64,000 bases of DNA from Henriciella marina DSM 19595 (GTDB lineage Bacteria; Pseudomonadota; Alphaproteobacteria; Caulobacterales; Hyphomonadaceae), in the NCBI RefSeq assembly GCF_000376805.1, contig NZ_AQXT01000002.1:3162001-3226000 (forward strand), in the 5' to 3' direction. This document shows, in pieces, positions 36,993 through 46,157 of the stretch; position 1 is the first letter of the stretch, and every line of letters starts with the position of its first letter. The position numbers and the translations under genes are program-made. The notes beneath the pieces were generated by a model. That model ran no database searches. It was not told where the DNA came from and worked only from the letters and a program-made list of their open reading frames with translations.

Positions 36993-37655
36993 ATGAAAAG
37001 CGCTGTTATTGTCTTTCCCGGATCAAATTGTGACCGCGACGCCGAAATCGCTCTCAAAGAGCTGACCGGTGAGGCGCCGGCCATGGTGTGGCACAAGGAT
37101 GGGGAGCTGCCTGAAGATGCCGACCTTGTGGTCGTGCCGGGCGGTTTCTCTTATGGCGACTATCTTCGCTGCGGGGCGATGGCGGCCAATTCACCGGTGA
37201 TCGCGGGGCTGAAGCGCCACGCCGAGCGCGGCGGATATGTCCTTGGCGTCTGCAACGGGTTTCAGGTGCTGACCGAAACGCAGCTTCTGCCGGGCGCACT
37301 CTTGCGCAATACCGGGCTCGATTTTGTCTGCCGCCCGCAGAAGCTTCGTATCGAAACCTCCAATTCGGCGTTCACCCGCGCCTATGGCGAGAGCAAAGAG
37401 ATCGCCATTCCGGTGGCCCATCATGACGGCAATTACGTCGCCGATGAAGAGACGCTGGACCGGCTGGAAGGCGAGGGGCGCGTTGCGTTCCGCTATAATG
37501 GCAATCCAAACGGATCGGCGCGCGATATTGCGGGCGTCCTTTCAGAGAATGGCCGCGTGCTTGGCCTGATGCCCCATCCTGAACGGGCGATTGGCGGACA
37601 CGAAGGCGGCAGCGATGGCCGCGCCCTGTTCGAAAGCCTTCTTTCAGCGATCTAG
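36993..37655 (+). CDS. purQ: Phosphoribosylformylglycinamidine synthase, glutaminase subunit
   Basis: PurQ, 220 residues, supplies ammonia from glutamine to PurL in the fourth step of purine synthesis. The class I amidotransferase triad is visible: nucleophile Cys 87 in GVCNGFQVL and the His/Glu pair in [10 protein letters not shown]. The oxyanion region [13 protein letters not shown] is also conserved. Bacteria with this small PurQ need PurS and the small PurL; purL is 6 kb downstream on the same strand and purS is not seen in the window. Confidence 0.97.
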
Positions 37656-40140: not shown

Positions 40141-41358
40141 ATGATTAAACGGGCAAGTGTCCTTGCGATATTGGGACTGGCCGTCGTGGCCTGTGGCGGC
40201 GCCGAGGAGACCGCGCCAGCAGCAGAGGCCGCCGATGAGGCTGCCTCTGCGGAGGACACGGCGAATGCCGCCGGTGCAGATGCGCCGACTGACTATAGCG
40301 AGCTCAGTAACTGGCTCTGCCATCCCGGCAAGGCTGAAGACGCCTGCGACATCGATCTCGATTACACGGTCGTCAGTGCTGATGGCATGACGGAGCAGCG
40401 CGCCTACACGCCAGCAAACGACCCGGCCATCGACTGCTTCTACATCTATCCCACTGTCTCCATGGACGAGACGCCCAATAGTGACCTGACGCCTGGCGAC
40501 GAGGAACTGCGTGTGGTCGAGAGCCAGTTTGCGCATTTTGGCTCGGCGTGTCGGCTCTATGCGCCGATGTACCGCCAGATGACGATACCGGAGCTTCGCA
40601 GCCGCATGATGGGCGGAGAGGTTCGCGCCGACGAGGACATGCGCTGGGCAGACGTTTCAGGCGCCTGGCAGGCCTATGTCGAAACGCAGAATGACGGGCG
40701 CGGCGTCGTCATTATCGGTCATTCGCAGGGCGCCCACATGATCGAGGAACTGGTCAGCCGCGAGATTGAAGGGGCGGAGATCGAGGGCCGCGTTCTCAGT
40801 GTGATGCCGATCGGCTGGACGGCCTATCCGGACGCATCCTCGGGCGGCATAGGTCCTTTTGCGCCTTGCGAAACACTTGGCCAGACAGGCTGTAGCGTCA
40901 GCTATGTATCTTTCCGCGCGACGTCTGCCCCGCCAGAGCGCAGCTGGTTCGGCCAGACGAATGATGAGGGCCGGCGCGCCCTTTGCGTTAATCCGGCAGC
41001 TGTCACCGGCAGCGGCGACGCGCTTGATGCGCGTCTGTCTGCTCGCAACTGGGTAACCGGTGAGGCTGCGGGCTTTATGGACGAGGGGAGCATCGAGACG
41101 CCGTTTGCATCCGTTCCGGGCCTTCTCACCGGCGCCTGCGTCGAGACCGAAGAACACACCTATCTCGAGGTGACGGTGAACGGTGACCCAACCGATCCGC
41201 GTACCGACGATATCGCTGGCGACGTCATGATCGCCGGTCAGGTTCTGTCAGACTGGGGGCTGCACCTGGTCGACATGAATGTCGCGATGGGTGACCTCGT
41301 CACGATTGTCGAGGCGCAAGCCAATAGCTGGTCCTCCAGCGAGGAGCTAGCCGAGTAG
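40141..41358 (+). CDS. DUF3089 family lipoprotein, alpha/beta-hydrolase-like
   Basis: A 405-residue predicted lipoprotein with lipobox (AVVACG) and an Ala/Glu-rich spacer. DUF3089 hallmarks are the start NWLCHPGKAEDAC, CFYIYPTVS, the region CRLYAPMYRQMTI, and the nucleophile elbow IIGHSQGAHM. Six or more cysteines suggest disulfides. The fold is of the lipase/esterase type, so an envelope esterase is likely but no substrate is known. It precedes the convergent flavoprotein gene with 24 bases between stops. Confidence 0.87.
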   Translation: MIKRASVLAILGLAVVACGGAEETAPAAEAADEAASAEDTANAAGADAPTDYSELSNWLCHPGKAEDACDIDLDYTVVSADGMTEQRAYTPANDPAIDCFYIYPTVSMDETPNSDLTPGDEELRVVESQFAHFGSACRLYAPMYRQMTIPELRSRMMGGEVRADEDMRWADVSGAWQAYVETQNDGRGVVIIGHSQGAHMIEELVSREIEGAEIEGRVLSVMPIGWTAYPDASSGGIGPFAPCETLGQTGCSVSYVSFRATSAPPERSWFGQTNDEGRRALCVNPAAVTGSGDALDARLSARNWVTGEAAGFMDEGSIETPFASVPGLLTGACVETEEHTYLEVTVNGDPTDPRTDDIAGDVMIAGQVLSDWGLHLVDMNVAMGDLVTIVEAQANSWSSSEELAE

Positions 41359-41382: not shown

Positions 41383-42510
41383 TCAGGCAGTCGCGCTGAG
41401 CCGGGCGGCAAGCTCTGCATGACCCTCGACCATTCGGATGATCTGATCTGGGTCTGGCAACAGGCTGTCATTGCCTTCCTCATGCGTACCGCCAAGGACC
41501 AGTCCGGTCTTGCGCGGAAACATGTAGAGGACCCCGGTCGAGGTCGGGGCGACATAGGAATAATTGATGTCCGGCTGGGGCAGGAGGTGGCTTAGCTGGC
41601 CCTTCACCGGCACCAGCGTGTCATCCCCGAAAAGCGTTGAGGCGCCGAGACCGGTACAGTTCACGATGACACGTTCGTCCAGTGCCAGAATGTCTTCCAG
41701 CGAGGCGAAATGCACGCGTTCAGTGCGCGCACCGGCGAGCTGCGCGTCTTTCAGAATGGCATCGAGGTAATAGTCGGGGTCGATGATCATCGCCTTGAAC
41801 CGCTCCTCATAGGCATAGCCGAAGAGGGTGTTCTCGCGGGATATGCGAAGATCGGGATAGATATCGTCGCCGCCGGGAAGCTCATGGCGCTCCGCTGGAA
41901 CGCGTCGCCCGAGCTGGTGATGATCAGTCCAGTAGACCCCGTAACCCGGCCGGTTCACATAAGGCAGGAAGCCGTAATAGGCGAGACGGATGAGCTTGCG
42001 GTTCATGGCCAGCCAATCCTGGCTGACAGCCGAACGGTCGAAATAGCCGGTCGGCATCCAGAGGACGCCAGCGACGTTTGACGTCGTGTGCGGCGGGAGC
42101 TGTTCGGCATACATGGTGACGTTGTGCCCGCGCCGCGCCAGAATCAGCGCCGCCGTCAGCCCCTGCACCCCGCAGCCAAGCACCGCAATATCGCGCGCCC
42201 CTGTCGCGGTCGCCTCATCGGCAGCGACAGAGGCCGTGCCCCAGGACATGGTCACGCCGCAGCCGCCATGACCGTAATTGTGGATCACGGTTTTCTCGCC
42301 GATTGTTTCCGCCTCGAGCCGGTAACCGATTGGGCGGTATGGCCTGAGGCCAACTACGGTCCGGGTCACGCGCGACAGCGACGACTGGACGGGCGTATAG
42401 TGAGCGTAGGGCGCCGTTGCTTCGGGCTGGAGAATCTCCGCAGCCGGGTGGGTCGCGCAGGCGCCCAGCGTGGCAAGACCGAGGCTGCTCACAAAGTCGC
42501 GTCGCCGCAT
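41383..42510 (-). CDS. D-amino-acid-oxidase-like FAD protein, circularly permuted, Tat/lipoprotein signal
   Basis: A 375-residue protein with a twin-arginine start MRRRDFVSSLGLATLGAC, so it is exported folded and perhaps lipidated. It contains every piece of the DAAO family but in changed order. GLRPYRPIGYRLE and IHNYGHGGCGVTMSWG, normally the C-terminal end, come first (54-91); the FAD-binding IAVLGCGVQGLTAALILARRG (split here at its motif, GCGVQG 112-117) follows, then TTSNVAGVLWMP, the middle domain, and CTGLGAS / LVPVKGQLSHLL, LGGTHEEGN. The chain ends just where a normal DAAO would continue into GLRP. The start MRRRDF was preferred over one 22 codons upstream. Likely a periplasmic D-amino acid or related oxidase/dehydrogenase. 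Confidence 0.88.
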   Translation of the reverse strand: MRRRDFVSSLGLATLGACATHPAAEILQPEATAPYAHYTPVQSSLSRVTRTVVGLRPYRPIGYRLEAETIGEKTVIHNYGHGGCGVTMSWGTASVAADEATATGARDIAVLGCGVQGLTAALILARRGHNVTMYAEQLPPHTTSNVAGVLWMPTGYFDRSAVSQDWLAMNRKLIRLAYYGFLPYVNRPGYGVYWTDHHQLGRRVPAERHELPGGDDIYPDLRISRENTLFGYAYEERFKAMIIDPDYYLDAILKDAQLAGARTERVHFASLEDILALDERVIVNCTGLGASTLFGDDTLVPVKGQLSHLLPQPDINYSYVAPTSTGVLYMFPRKTGLVLGGTHEEGNDSLLPDPDQIIRMVEGHAELAARLSATA

Positions 42511-43616: not shown

Positions 43617-43844
43617 AGAAGGTATCCTTTCGTTTCGTATCCAAGAACCACGGCATCAACGCAGAGACCACCTCGCAGGTTTCGACCAAAACAAAATTGA
43701 TGCTCTGCGTGCGGTGCTGATACCACTTCTTGCAGGCGCCCAACTGGATTGCGGCCTGCAAATCGCGCAAGAGTGCATTGTCCCGGAGCTGCGCGCCAAG
43801 TATCGAGCATTTCAAAGTTACCAATCAGGATCGAGCAAGCCAAA

Positions 43845-46157
43845 TTGACCGACACTTCTGACCTCTCGAACCGGATCGTTGACGCCATGCAGGCGCAGCA
43901 ATCCGAAACCGATGCAGCCGGCCACGGCATCAATGCCGAGGAGTGGGACCGGCTGGTGACCCGCCTGGGGCGAAACCCGAACCTTGTCGAGCTCGGCATC
44001 TATTCGGTGATGTGGTCAGAGCACTGCTCCTACAAATCCTCACGCCGTCATCTCTCGAAATTTCCGACCAAGAATGACCGGGTCATCCAGGGGCCGGGCG
44101 AGAATGCGGGCGTTATCGATATTGGCGACGGTCAGGCGGCCATCTTCAAGATGGAGTCGCATAACCATCCCTCCTACATCGAGCCCTATCAAGGCGCGGC
44201 GACCGGTGTTGGCGGCATCCTTCGCGATGTCTTCACAATGGGCGCACGGCCGATTGCGCTGGTCAATGCGCTTCGTTTTGGGTCTCCGGACCACCCAAAG
44301 ACGCGCAGCCTTGTGGCTGGCGTCGTTGCGGGCATTGGCGGCTATGGCAACTGCGTCGGTGTGCCGACCGTCGCGGGTGAGACCCAGTTCGACGAAGGTT
44401 ACAATGGTAACATCCTCGTCAATGCGATGGCGGTCGGCCTCGCAGATCAGGACAAGATTTTCTATGCGCGCGGCGCGACCCCCGGCAACCAGATATTCTA
44501 TGTCGGCTCGAAGACCGGCCGCGACGGCATTCATGGCGCGACCATGGCCTCGGCGGAATTCTCGGAAGGCGACGAGGAAAAGCGCCCCACGGTTCAGGTT
44601 GGCGACCCGTTCACCGAAAAGCTGCTGATCGAGGCCTGCCTTGAGCTGATGGCGACGGATGCAATTCAGGCGATTCAGGATATGGGCGCGGCGGGACTCA
44701 CCTCGTCCTCGGTTGAGATGGCGGCGTCAGGCGGCGAGAATGGCGAGGGCATCGGCATCGAGATGGACCTCGACAAGGTGCCCCAGCGCGAAACCGGCAT
44801 GACGGCTTATGAGATCATGCTGTCGGAGAGCCAGGAGCGGATGCTCATGGTCCTCCAGCCCGGCAAGGAAGACCTCGCCAAGGCGATCTTCGAAAAGTAC
44901 GACCTCGACGCCGAAGTGATCGGCATGACGACCGATACAGGCCGCATGGTGCTCAAACAGTTCGGGCAGACGGTGTGCGATATTCCTGTCGCGCCGCTAG
45001 CCGAAGACGCGCCGAACTATGACCGGCCATGGGTTGAGCCAAAGGTTCGCGCGCCACTCGATATGTCCAAATACCCTGAGCCAGAGGATTATGGCGAGGT
45101 GTTGCTGAAGCTCATGTCCTCACCCGACATGGCCTCCAAGCGCTGGATCTGGGAACAGTATGACCGCCATGTCATGGGCGACACGATCGACAGCTCACAG
45201 TCCATGGGCGACGCGGCCATCGTGCGTATCCACGGCACGAACAAGGCGCTGGCGATCTGCTCGGACTGCAACCCGCATTATGTTGCCGCAGACCCTTATG
45301 AGGGTGGCAAGGCGGTCGTCGCCGAAGCCTATCGCAACCTCTCTAGCGTGGGCGCGACGCCCATCGCGATCACCGACAATCTCAATTTCGGCAATCCGGA
45401 AAAGCCCGCCACGATGGGCTATATCGTCAAGGCCATCGAAGGCATGGCGGAAGCCTGCCGCGCGCTCGATTTCCCGGTCGTGTCCGGCAATGTGTCGCTT
45501 TACAATGAGACAGACGGCGTCGCCATTCCGCCAACCCCGGTCGTCGGCGGCGTGGGCCTGATCGAAGATGTGTCTAAGATTGCGACGCTGAAAGGCGCGC
45601 AGCCGGGCGATGCGATCATCCTCATCGGTGATTTCGAGAACTGCTCAATGGGCGCGTCCCTCTATGCGCGTGAGTGGCTGGGCCTCAAGGGCGAAGCGCT
45701 CGGCCCGTCTCCGCGTGTGGATCTCGCGGACGAAATCGACAATGCTGCGCTGGTTCGAAAGCTCATCCATGACGGGCTCGTCAATGCCGTTCACGATGTG
45801 AGTGACGGCGGTATCGCCTGCGCCCTCTCGGAAATCGCGCTTGCTGCCAATGCTGGCGTGAGCATCGATATCGGCGAACGTTTCGGCAAACTTTCGGCGC
45901 TCTCATTCCTGTTTGGAGAAGGAACGGCACGCTATGTCGTCGCCGCAAAGGGTGGTGAAGAGGCAGTCTTTGACCTGATCGAGGCCGAGGGCGACAAGGT
46001 GAAATGCCTCTATCTCGGCTATGTCGAAGAGGTGGGCGAACCGGAAATCAGCTTTGTTCATGACGCACAGAGCGGCGATGCGACAAGTCTTTCGCTCGAC
46101 ACCCTTCGCGAGGCCCATGAAGGCTGGCTGCCGCGCTACATGAAGGGCGAGGGCTGA
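43845..46157 (+). CDS. purL: Phosphoribosylformylglycinamidine synthase, large subunit
   Basis: Small-type PurL of about 770 residues that uses ATP and PurQ-derived ammonia to turn FGAR into FGAM. Core motifs are [62 protein letters not shown] and the second half [14 protein letters not shown]. The start is uncertain: no ATG fits. TTG 43845 (LTDTSDLSN) gives a normal-length N-terminus with AGGA some way upstream, while the first ATG (43887) would remove part of the leading helix. It is 6 kb from purQ. Confidence 0.95.

Follow-up and report, generated by a model that had tools for sequence, protein, structure and literature searches.

D-amino acid oxidase (DAAO) is a textbook flavoenzyme. In the chains of DAAO (EC 1.4.3.3) and of D-aspartate oxidase (DASPO, EC 1.4.3.1) the Rossmann core comes first and the GxRP strand and HNYGHGG loop come last, and glycine oxidase ThiO and the other DAO flavoproteins (PF01266) belong to the same superfamily. 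According to PMC6279847, the substrate carboxylate of human DAAO contacts Arg283 and Tyr228, with Tyr224, part of a mobile loop, serving as the roof of the active site. A circularly permuted DAAO is apparently undescribed: no description was found in the open-access full-text literature, a corpus that omits most subscription papers, and the main text of PMC4699246 contains no word beginning 'permut'. Where annotation was seen, permuted genes were labelled only 'FAD-dependent oxidoreductase', as are the rhizobial proteins WSH67949.1 and WP_304495191.1, which share the permuted order and in which no export leader was found.

We analysed a window of 64,000 nucleotides from Henriciella marina DSM 19595, in which a first-pass annotation had proposed a clean circular permutation of a DAAO-family protein, said to carry a Tat/lipoprotein signal suggestive of export and to be without a known description; as far as open-access full text shows, this last point stands. 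Translation of 41383-42510 on the minus strand gave 375 amino acids without an internal stop, with the motifs at the positions that had been claimed (GLRPYRP at residues 54-60, HNYGHGGCGVTMSWG at 77-91, then GCGVQG at 112-117). The features of the gene are as follows.

41383-42510, minus strand: permuted DAAO-family flavoprotein gene, 375 amino acids plus stop (translation; PF01266 in swapped order; genus relatives 82-86% identical)
42457-42510, minus strand: twin-arginine leader with a lipobox-like LGAC, residues 1-18 (RR and Cys recur in relatives; putative export signal)
42217-42378, minus strand: moved block, residues 45-98 (PF01266 positions 296-352)
41401-42195, minus strand: FAD-binding Rossmann and substrate core, residues 106-370 (PF01266 positions 1-297)

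The moved block contains the GLRP strand with R56, the HNYGHGG loop and the start of the next helix, and Tyr329 lies within the core. In canonical DAAO the counterpart of the moved block is C-terminal and that of the core is N-terminal, an order that is reversed in the window protein. PF01266 (DAO) was the sole Pfam match at E <= 0.001 and placed the protein in the DAO superfamily, with 112 bits against a curated cut-off of 27.9, divided over two stretches. When the DAO profile (353 positions) was run against the genome of the window, its positions 1-297 matched the core (E 4.7e-24) and its positions 296-352 matched the N-terminal block (E 1.3e-6), upstream of the core and in the same open frame. 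Each block was present once, as had been claimed. NCBIfam models matched the window protein far below their cut-offs, the best being ThiO (55 of 251 bits), a far weaker match than those to DAAO and DASPO; the ThiO model also matched 15 of the 19 members of the permuted alignment A1.

All solved structures found by phmmer at E <= 0.001, amounting to 17 distinct sequences, bore the name of a D-amino acid oxidase or a D-aspartate oxidase. The best match, human DASPO (6rkf, 2.1e-26), aligned query residues 106-356 with chain residues 13-259 and query residues 50-97 with chain residues 281-331; Rasamsonia emersonii DAAO (7ct4) aligned query 104-371 with chain 22-308 and query 49-98 with chain 321-370, and the two stretches (query 106-352 and 47-97) were likewise swapped in a third DAAO, 8hy5. 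Two stretches were present in 16 of the 17 solved matches, the swapped order being displayed for these three alignments. A profile of 19 permuted relatives matched 17 solved DAAO/DASPO sequences at E 2.3e-29 or better, with the next match at 1.3e-10. In all 17 the core started at chain residue 3-23, which leaves no space for a moved block ahead of it, so that none of the solved structures found has the permuted form. The window protein shares with DAAO (human, pig and Rasamsonia emersonii) both blocks, the carboxylate arginine, the Tyr228 counterpart and the HNYGHGG loop, and differs from it by the swapped blocks, by a leader of Tat/lipobox type and by a gap at the Tyr224 lid column; with human DASPO it shares the two swapped stretches and differs in block order and in the export leader.

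The structure prediction that the first-pass annotation had proposed as a check gave a confident model: AlphaFold2, run on a 19-row alignment, returned a pLDDT of 87 and a pTM of 0.84, with residues 1-32 (leader and linker, 32 in all) below 50 and ten-residue blocks from residue 41 to 140 averaging 90 or more in nine of ten cases. The core alone, folded as a single sequence, gave an unusable pLDDT of 30. In the model, strands 48-58, 64-70 and 73-79 are followed by helix 89-102 and Rossmann strand 107-111, and the chain ends with helix 354-374. The GxRP strand is where the chain now enters the fold from its new N-terminus, and, since helix 89-102 runs into strand 107-111, the old ends are predicted to be joined by four residues. 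Foldseek against the PDB ranked DAAO/DASPO chains 1-33 (29 by title, and four from 4qfd/4qfc, which we take to be human DAAO), with E between 2.5e-16 and 3.3e-13 and 21-26% identity in the structural alignments. These covered 274-320 columns with a TM-score by target of 0.56-0.69, as expected for a permutation, since the aligner is sequential and can place just one of the two swapped blocks. Glycine oxidases followed from rank 34 (E 1.1e-8). By sequence and by fold, DAAO and DASPO are thus the nearest solved relatives.

We then considered how widely the swapped order is shared. Among 61 genomes (the window's own and 60 relatives of its own or related species), 28 had a match to the window protein at E <= 1e-20, and in 28 of 28, own genome included, the moved block lay ahead of the core within a single open frame; six other genomes of the genus encoded relatives that were 82-86% identical and 375-378 amino acids long, with a start chosen by us. 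In named bacterial genomes, the family profile confirmed at least 262 relatives among at least 594 candidate stretches, and the best 80 of these (at least 262) were permuted without exception, in a set that favours permuted forms because the query itself was permuted. They came from Pseudomonadota, Bacteroidota, Acidobacteriota, Cyanobacteriota, Verrucomicrobiota, Planctomycetota and Myxococcota, and a permuted member from Nonomuraea (Actinomycetota) in a plasmid collection raised the total to eight phyla; three further plasmid-collection matches, from Mycobacterium, Streptomyces and Nocardia, were all canonical. No relative was found in the viral contigs searched.

Samples of single phyla were scored at E <= 1e-12 (1e-15 for the own phylum), with at most 9 to 17 candidates per genome. 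In the own phylum, 8 of 200 genomes had a match and all eight were permuted. In Bacteroidota there were 17 matching genomes of 148, 2 permuted (the sample-centre genome and G418) and 15 canonical; in Acidobacteriota 17 of 149, 10 permuted (sample-centre genome included), 6 canonical and 1 a short fragment; in Planctomycetota 5 of 119, 3 permuted (sample-centre genome included) and 2 canonical; in Myxococcota 3 of 112, 1 permuted (the sample-centre genome) and 2 canonical; and in Cyanobacteriota 1 of 117, the sample-centre genome itself. One Acidobacteriota genome, G462, had four matches spanning the permuted profile (L174, L188, L194 and one without a locus), and the order was read for three of them. 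Over all loci, 192 open reading frames carried both blocks, 154 permuted and 38 canonical, repeat copies of a gene included, in a census that leans to the permuted form through the permuted query at E <= 1e-20, the profile built from permuted proteins and the few candidates scored per genome in the phylum samples; none of the 192 was a tandem intermediate with either block twice. The distinct set comprised 128 permuted bacterial sequences and 34 canonical rows, 31 of them bacterial and three of them eukaryotic proteins of solved structure.

The permuted form is therefore real and widespread, neither an assembly error nor a one-off. That a frameshift, a gene fusion or a misassembly (the last raised, together with overlapping genes, by the first-pass annotation itself) had put a DAAO tail ahead of a core might draw on a rhizobial relative annotated in two pieces; yet in that gene, on the Mesorhizobium plasmid pOM4 (L118:3953-5016, two annotated genes with a 4-base overlap), the frame changes in the GxGxxG loop of an otherwise normally permuted gene and not at the permutation junction, and the finding of the permuted order, within a single open frame, in 28/28 own or related matches and 80/80 kept named loci refutes such an artefact for all practical purposes. 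Chance motif matching, overlapping genes and misassembly were ruled out by the same conserved order.

As regards its origin, L001 and L002, which match DAO best in the genome of the window, are canonical in order, unlike the window protein, and match PF01266 end to end in that order, which is therefore likely to be ancestral. In a quick 162-row tree (LG+G4) the block order changes twice; the second change is due to one long-branched permuted row, L163, that sits among canonical rows. This row has the longest end branch and is joined to long canonical branches, a join about which the tree program warns, so that its grouping is possibly an artefact or a second permutation. L163 (from G418 of the Bacteroidota sample) is very divergent and has the permuted order with an RR leader and a cysteine. 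An 84-row tree under a mixture model, from which L163, 71 other permuted rows and 6 canonical rows were left out, had one branch parting 56 permuted from 28 canonical rows, with an SH-aLRT of 91, under the 95 mark. This tree is consistent with a single ancient permutation event, and L163 may represent a second one. Together with the profile and pairwise matches, the relatives and the confident model, it supports the clean permutation first proposed.

Permuted order and export signal go together. The leader of the window protein, MRRRDFVSSLGLATLGAC, has the RR pair, the hydrophobic stretch and the lipobox-like cysteine (C18) of a Tat lipoprotein signal. A home-made pattern (RR, an uncharged hydrophobic stretch and an optional lipobox) found a Tat-type leader in 118 of 128 distinct permuted proteins and in 0 of 31 canonical ones, where shuffled leaders would be expected to give 12.2 and 0.2; a lipobox-like Cys was also present in 88 of the 128. 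A stricter first pattern (Met before RR and a stronger hydrophobic stretch) found 91/128 and was loosened after its misses had been viewed; the looser one still misses L099, in which a leader is visible by eye, and probably passes some proteins wrongly. The predicted signal thus recurs throughout most of the permuted group, in line with the export that had been suggested. Ten permuted proteins were leaderless by the pattern. Six of them (L102, L104, L117, L119, L120 and L152) are planctomycete, rhizobial or of actinobacterial type and belong to the first group to split from the remaining permuted proteins in the 84-row tree, and thus the permuted order also occurs without export; of the other four, L099 has the leader seen by eye, L091 is cut by a contig end, and L025 and L079 have none. 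The association of leader and permutation lies within one clade and so does not show that there were many independent gains.

Active-site residues were counted in an alignment with the blocks rearranged into one order (128 permuted and 34 canonical rows). The counterpart of Arg283, R56 in the window protein, was Arg in 128/128 permuted and 34/34 canonical rows; the three GxGxxG glycines were complete in all rows of both kinds, and the HNYGHGG positions tested were invariant or nearly so over the 128 diverse permuted proteins. This conservation of FAD loop, HNYGHGG loop and carboxylate arginine argues against a dead or purely structural lipoprotein that had kept the fold and lost catalysis, which we regard as very improbable. 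The counterpart of Tyr228, Y329 in the window protein, was Tyr in 63/128 permuted and 32/34 canonical rows, and the Tyr224 column was a gap in the window protein and in 120/128 permuted rows, in a lid loop that aligns poorly and in which canonical bacterial rows likewise lack a conserved Tyr224. Given these counts, substrate and kinetics may differ from those of DAAO. Both carboxylate residues are kept in the window protein, and one of them is altered in about half of the sampled permuted proteins, a pattern suggestive of more than a single class of substrate. The 65 of 128 permuted rows that have lost the Tyr228 counterpart (for example L098, L030 and L036) have often lost the Gly-Gly behind the next strand as well. 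The loss suggests a different substrate or function for these proteins, and much of the permuted family may not be D-amino acid oxidases.

Such counts are also what one would expect if the permuted DAAO fold served another substrate, in an exported oxidase or dehydrogenase acting on a different amine or imino acid, the candidates being a sarcosine- or glycine-like compound, a cyclic imino acid or an amino sugar. The partial loss of Tyr228, the Tyr224 gap, the ThiO model as best NCBIfam match and the neighbourhoods described below, which hold no conserved D-amino-acid genes, all lean this way; against it, the only solved relatives at E < 1e-20 are the 17 DAAO/DASPO sequences, the Foldseek ranking puts 33 such chains ahead of the first glycine oxidase, the carboxylate arginine is invariant and Tyr329 is present in the window protein. 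We consider this alternative unlikely, although of some weight. Our preferred reading, to which we give a probability of roughly 0.7, is that the window protein is a circularly permuted flavoenzyme of the DAAO/DASPO superfamily, putatively exported by Tat and anchored to lipid, that would oxidise D-amino acids outside the cytoplasm.

For a D-amino-acid-oxidising flavoenzyme of this kind, the old C-terminal segment (the substrate-arginine strand, the HNYGHGG loop and the last helix) would have moved ahead of the Rossmann core, with new ends created in the loop that precedes the GxRP strand, in an ancient event that would have happened on one or at most very few occasions and that would free the N-terminus from the Rossmann strand. 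The chain would fold and take up FAD in the cytoplasm, be exported folded via Tat and become lipidated at Cys18. D-amino acids, probably from wall turnover or from the surroundings, would then be oxidised to 2-oxo acids, the electrons passing to oxygen, giving hydrogen peroxide, or to another acceptor. A wider proposal is that this is a large, ancient permuted family of bacterial amino acid oxidases, which in several phyla would oxidise D-amino acids in the periplasm as DAAO does in the cytoplasm and in peroxisomes, and in which the permutation was kept as it freed the N-terminus for a Tat leader and lipid anchor; we advance it tentatively, at well below even odds.

A natural permuted DAAO in eight phyla would show that the fold tolerates new ends beside its active-site strand, a tolerance useful for engineering and biosensors. 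The variation at Tyr228 inside the permuted group would provide natural tests of the role of this residue, the tie between permuted order and export leader would make the question of why proteins get permuted a testable one, and the family would suggest that environmental bacteria oxidise D-amino acids outside the cytoplasm.

Within the window, genes which we take to be purL (43749-46157) and purQ (36993-37655) lie on either side of the flavoprotein gene. Homologues of both are present in four loci of relatives (L037, L038, L041 and L043), and the place of the gene is thus conserved among relatives. A DUF3089 (PF11288) gene with a lipoprotein-like start (40141-41358, plus strand) is convergent with the flavoprotein gene and has homologues in L037, L038 and L043, and a small Hva1_TUDOR gene (PF11160; 42644-42910, plus strand) is divergent from it. 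The adjacent DUF3089, GNAT and tudor-domain genes were considered as partners and rejected, as they suggest no pathway. When the neighbours in 80 loci, called with a home-made gene caller, were clustered, no family apart from the gene itself occurred in more than five loci. Pfam scanning covered 66 same-strand neighbour frames, namely 65 of about 86 (hand-counted) same-strand ones among 183 open reading frames selected from 65 of the 80 loci, and one from the clustered set. Among the first 25 of 119 families none occurred in more than four; there were TonB receptors (4), beta-lactamase-family hydrolases (3), amino acid permeases (2) and S15 peptidases (2), a weak signal. No conserved D-amino-acid partner gene was found in the 80 clustered loci and 66 scanned frames. 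On two rhizobial plasmids (L117:3554-7780 and L119:2363-6690), the leaderless permuted gene lies in a same-strand cluster, with an FAD-binding oxidoreductase on one side and a thiamine pyrophosphate-binding enzyme on the other, as if the permuted fold were used there in a separate pathway.
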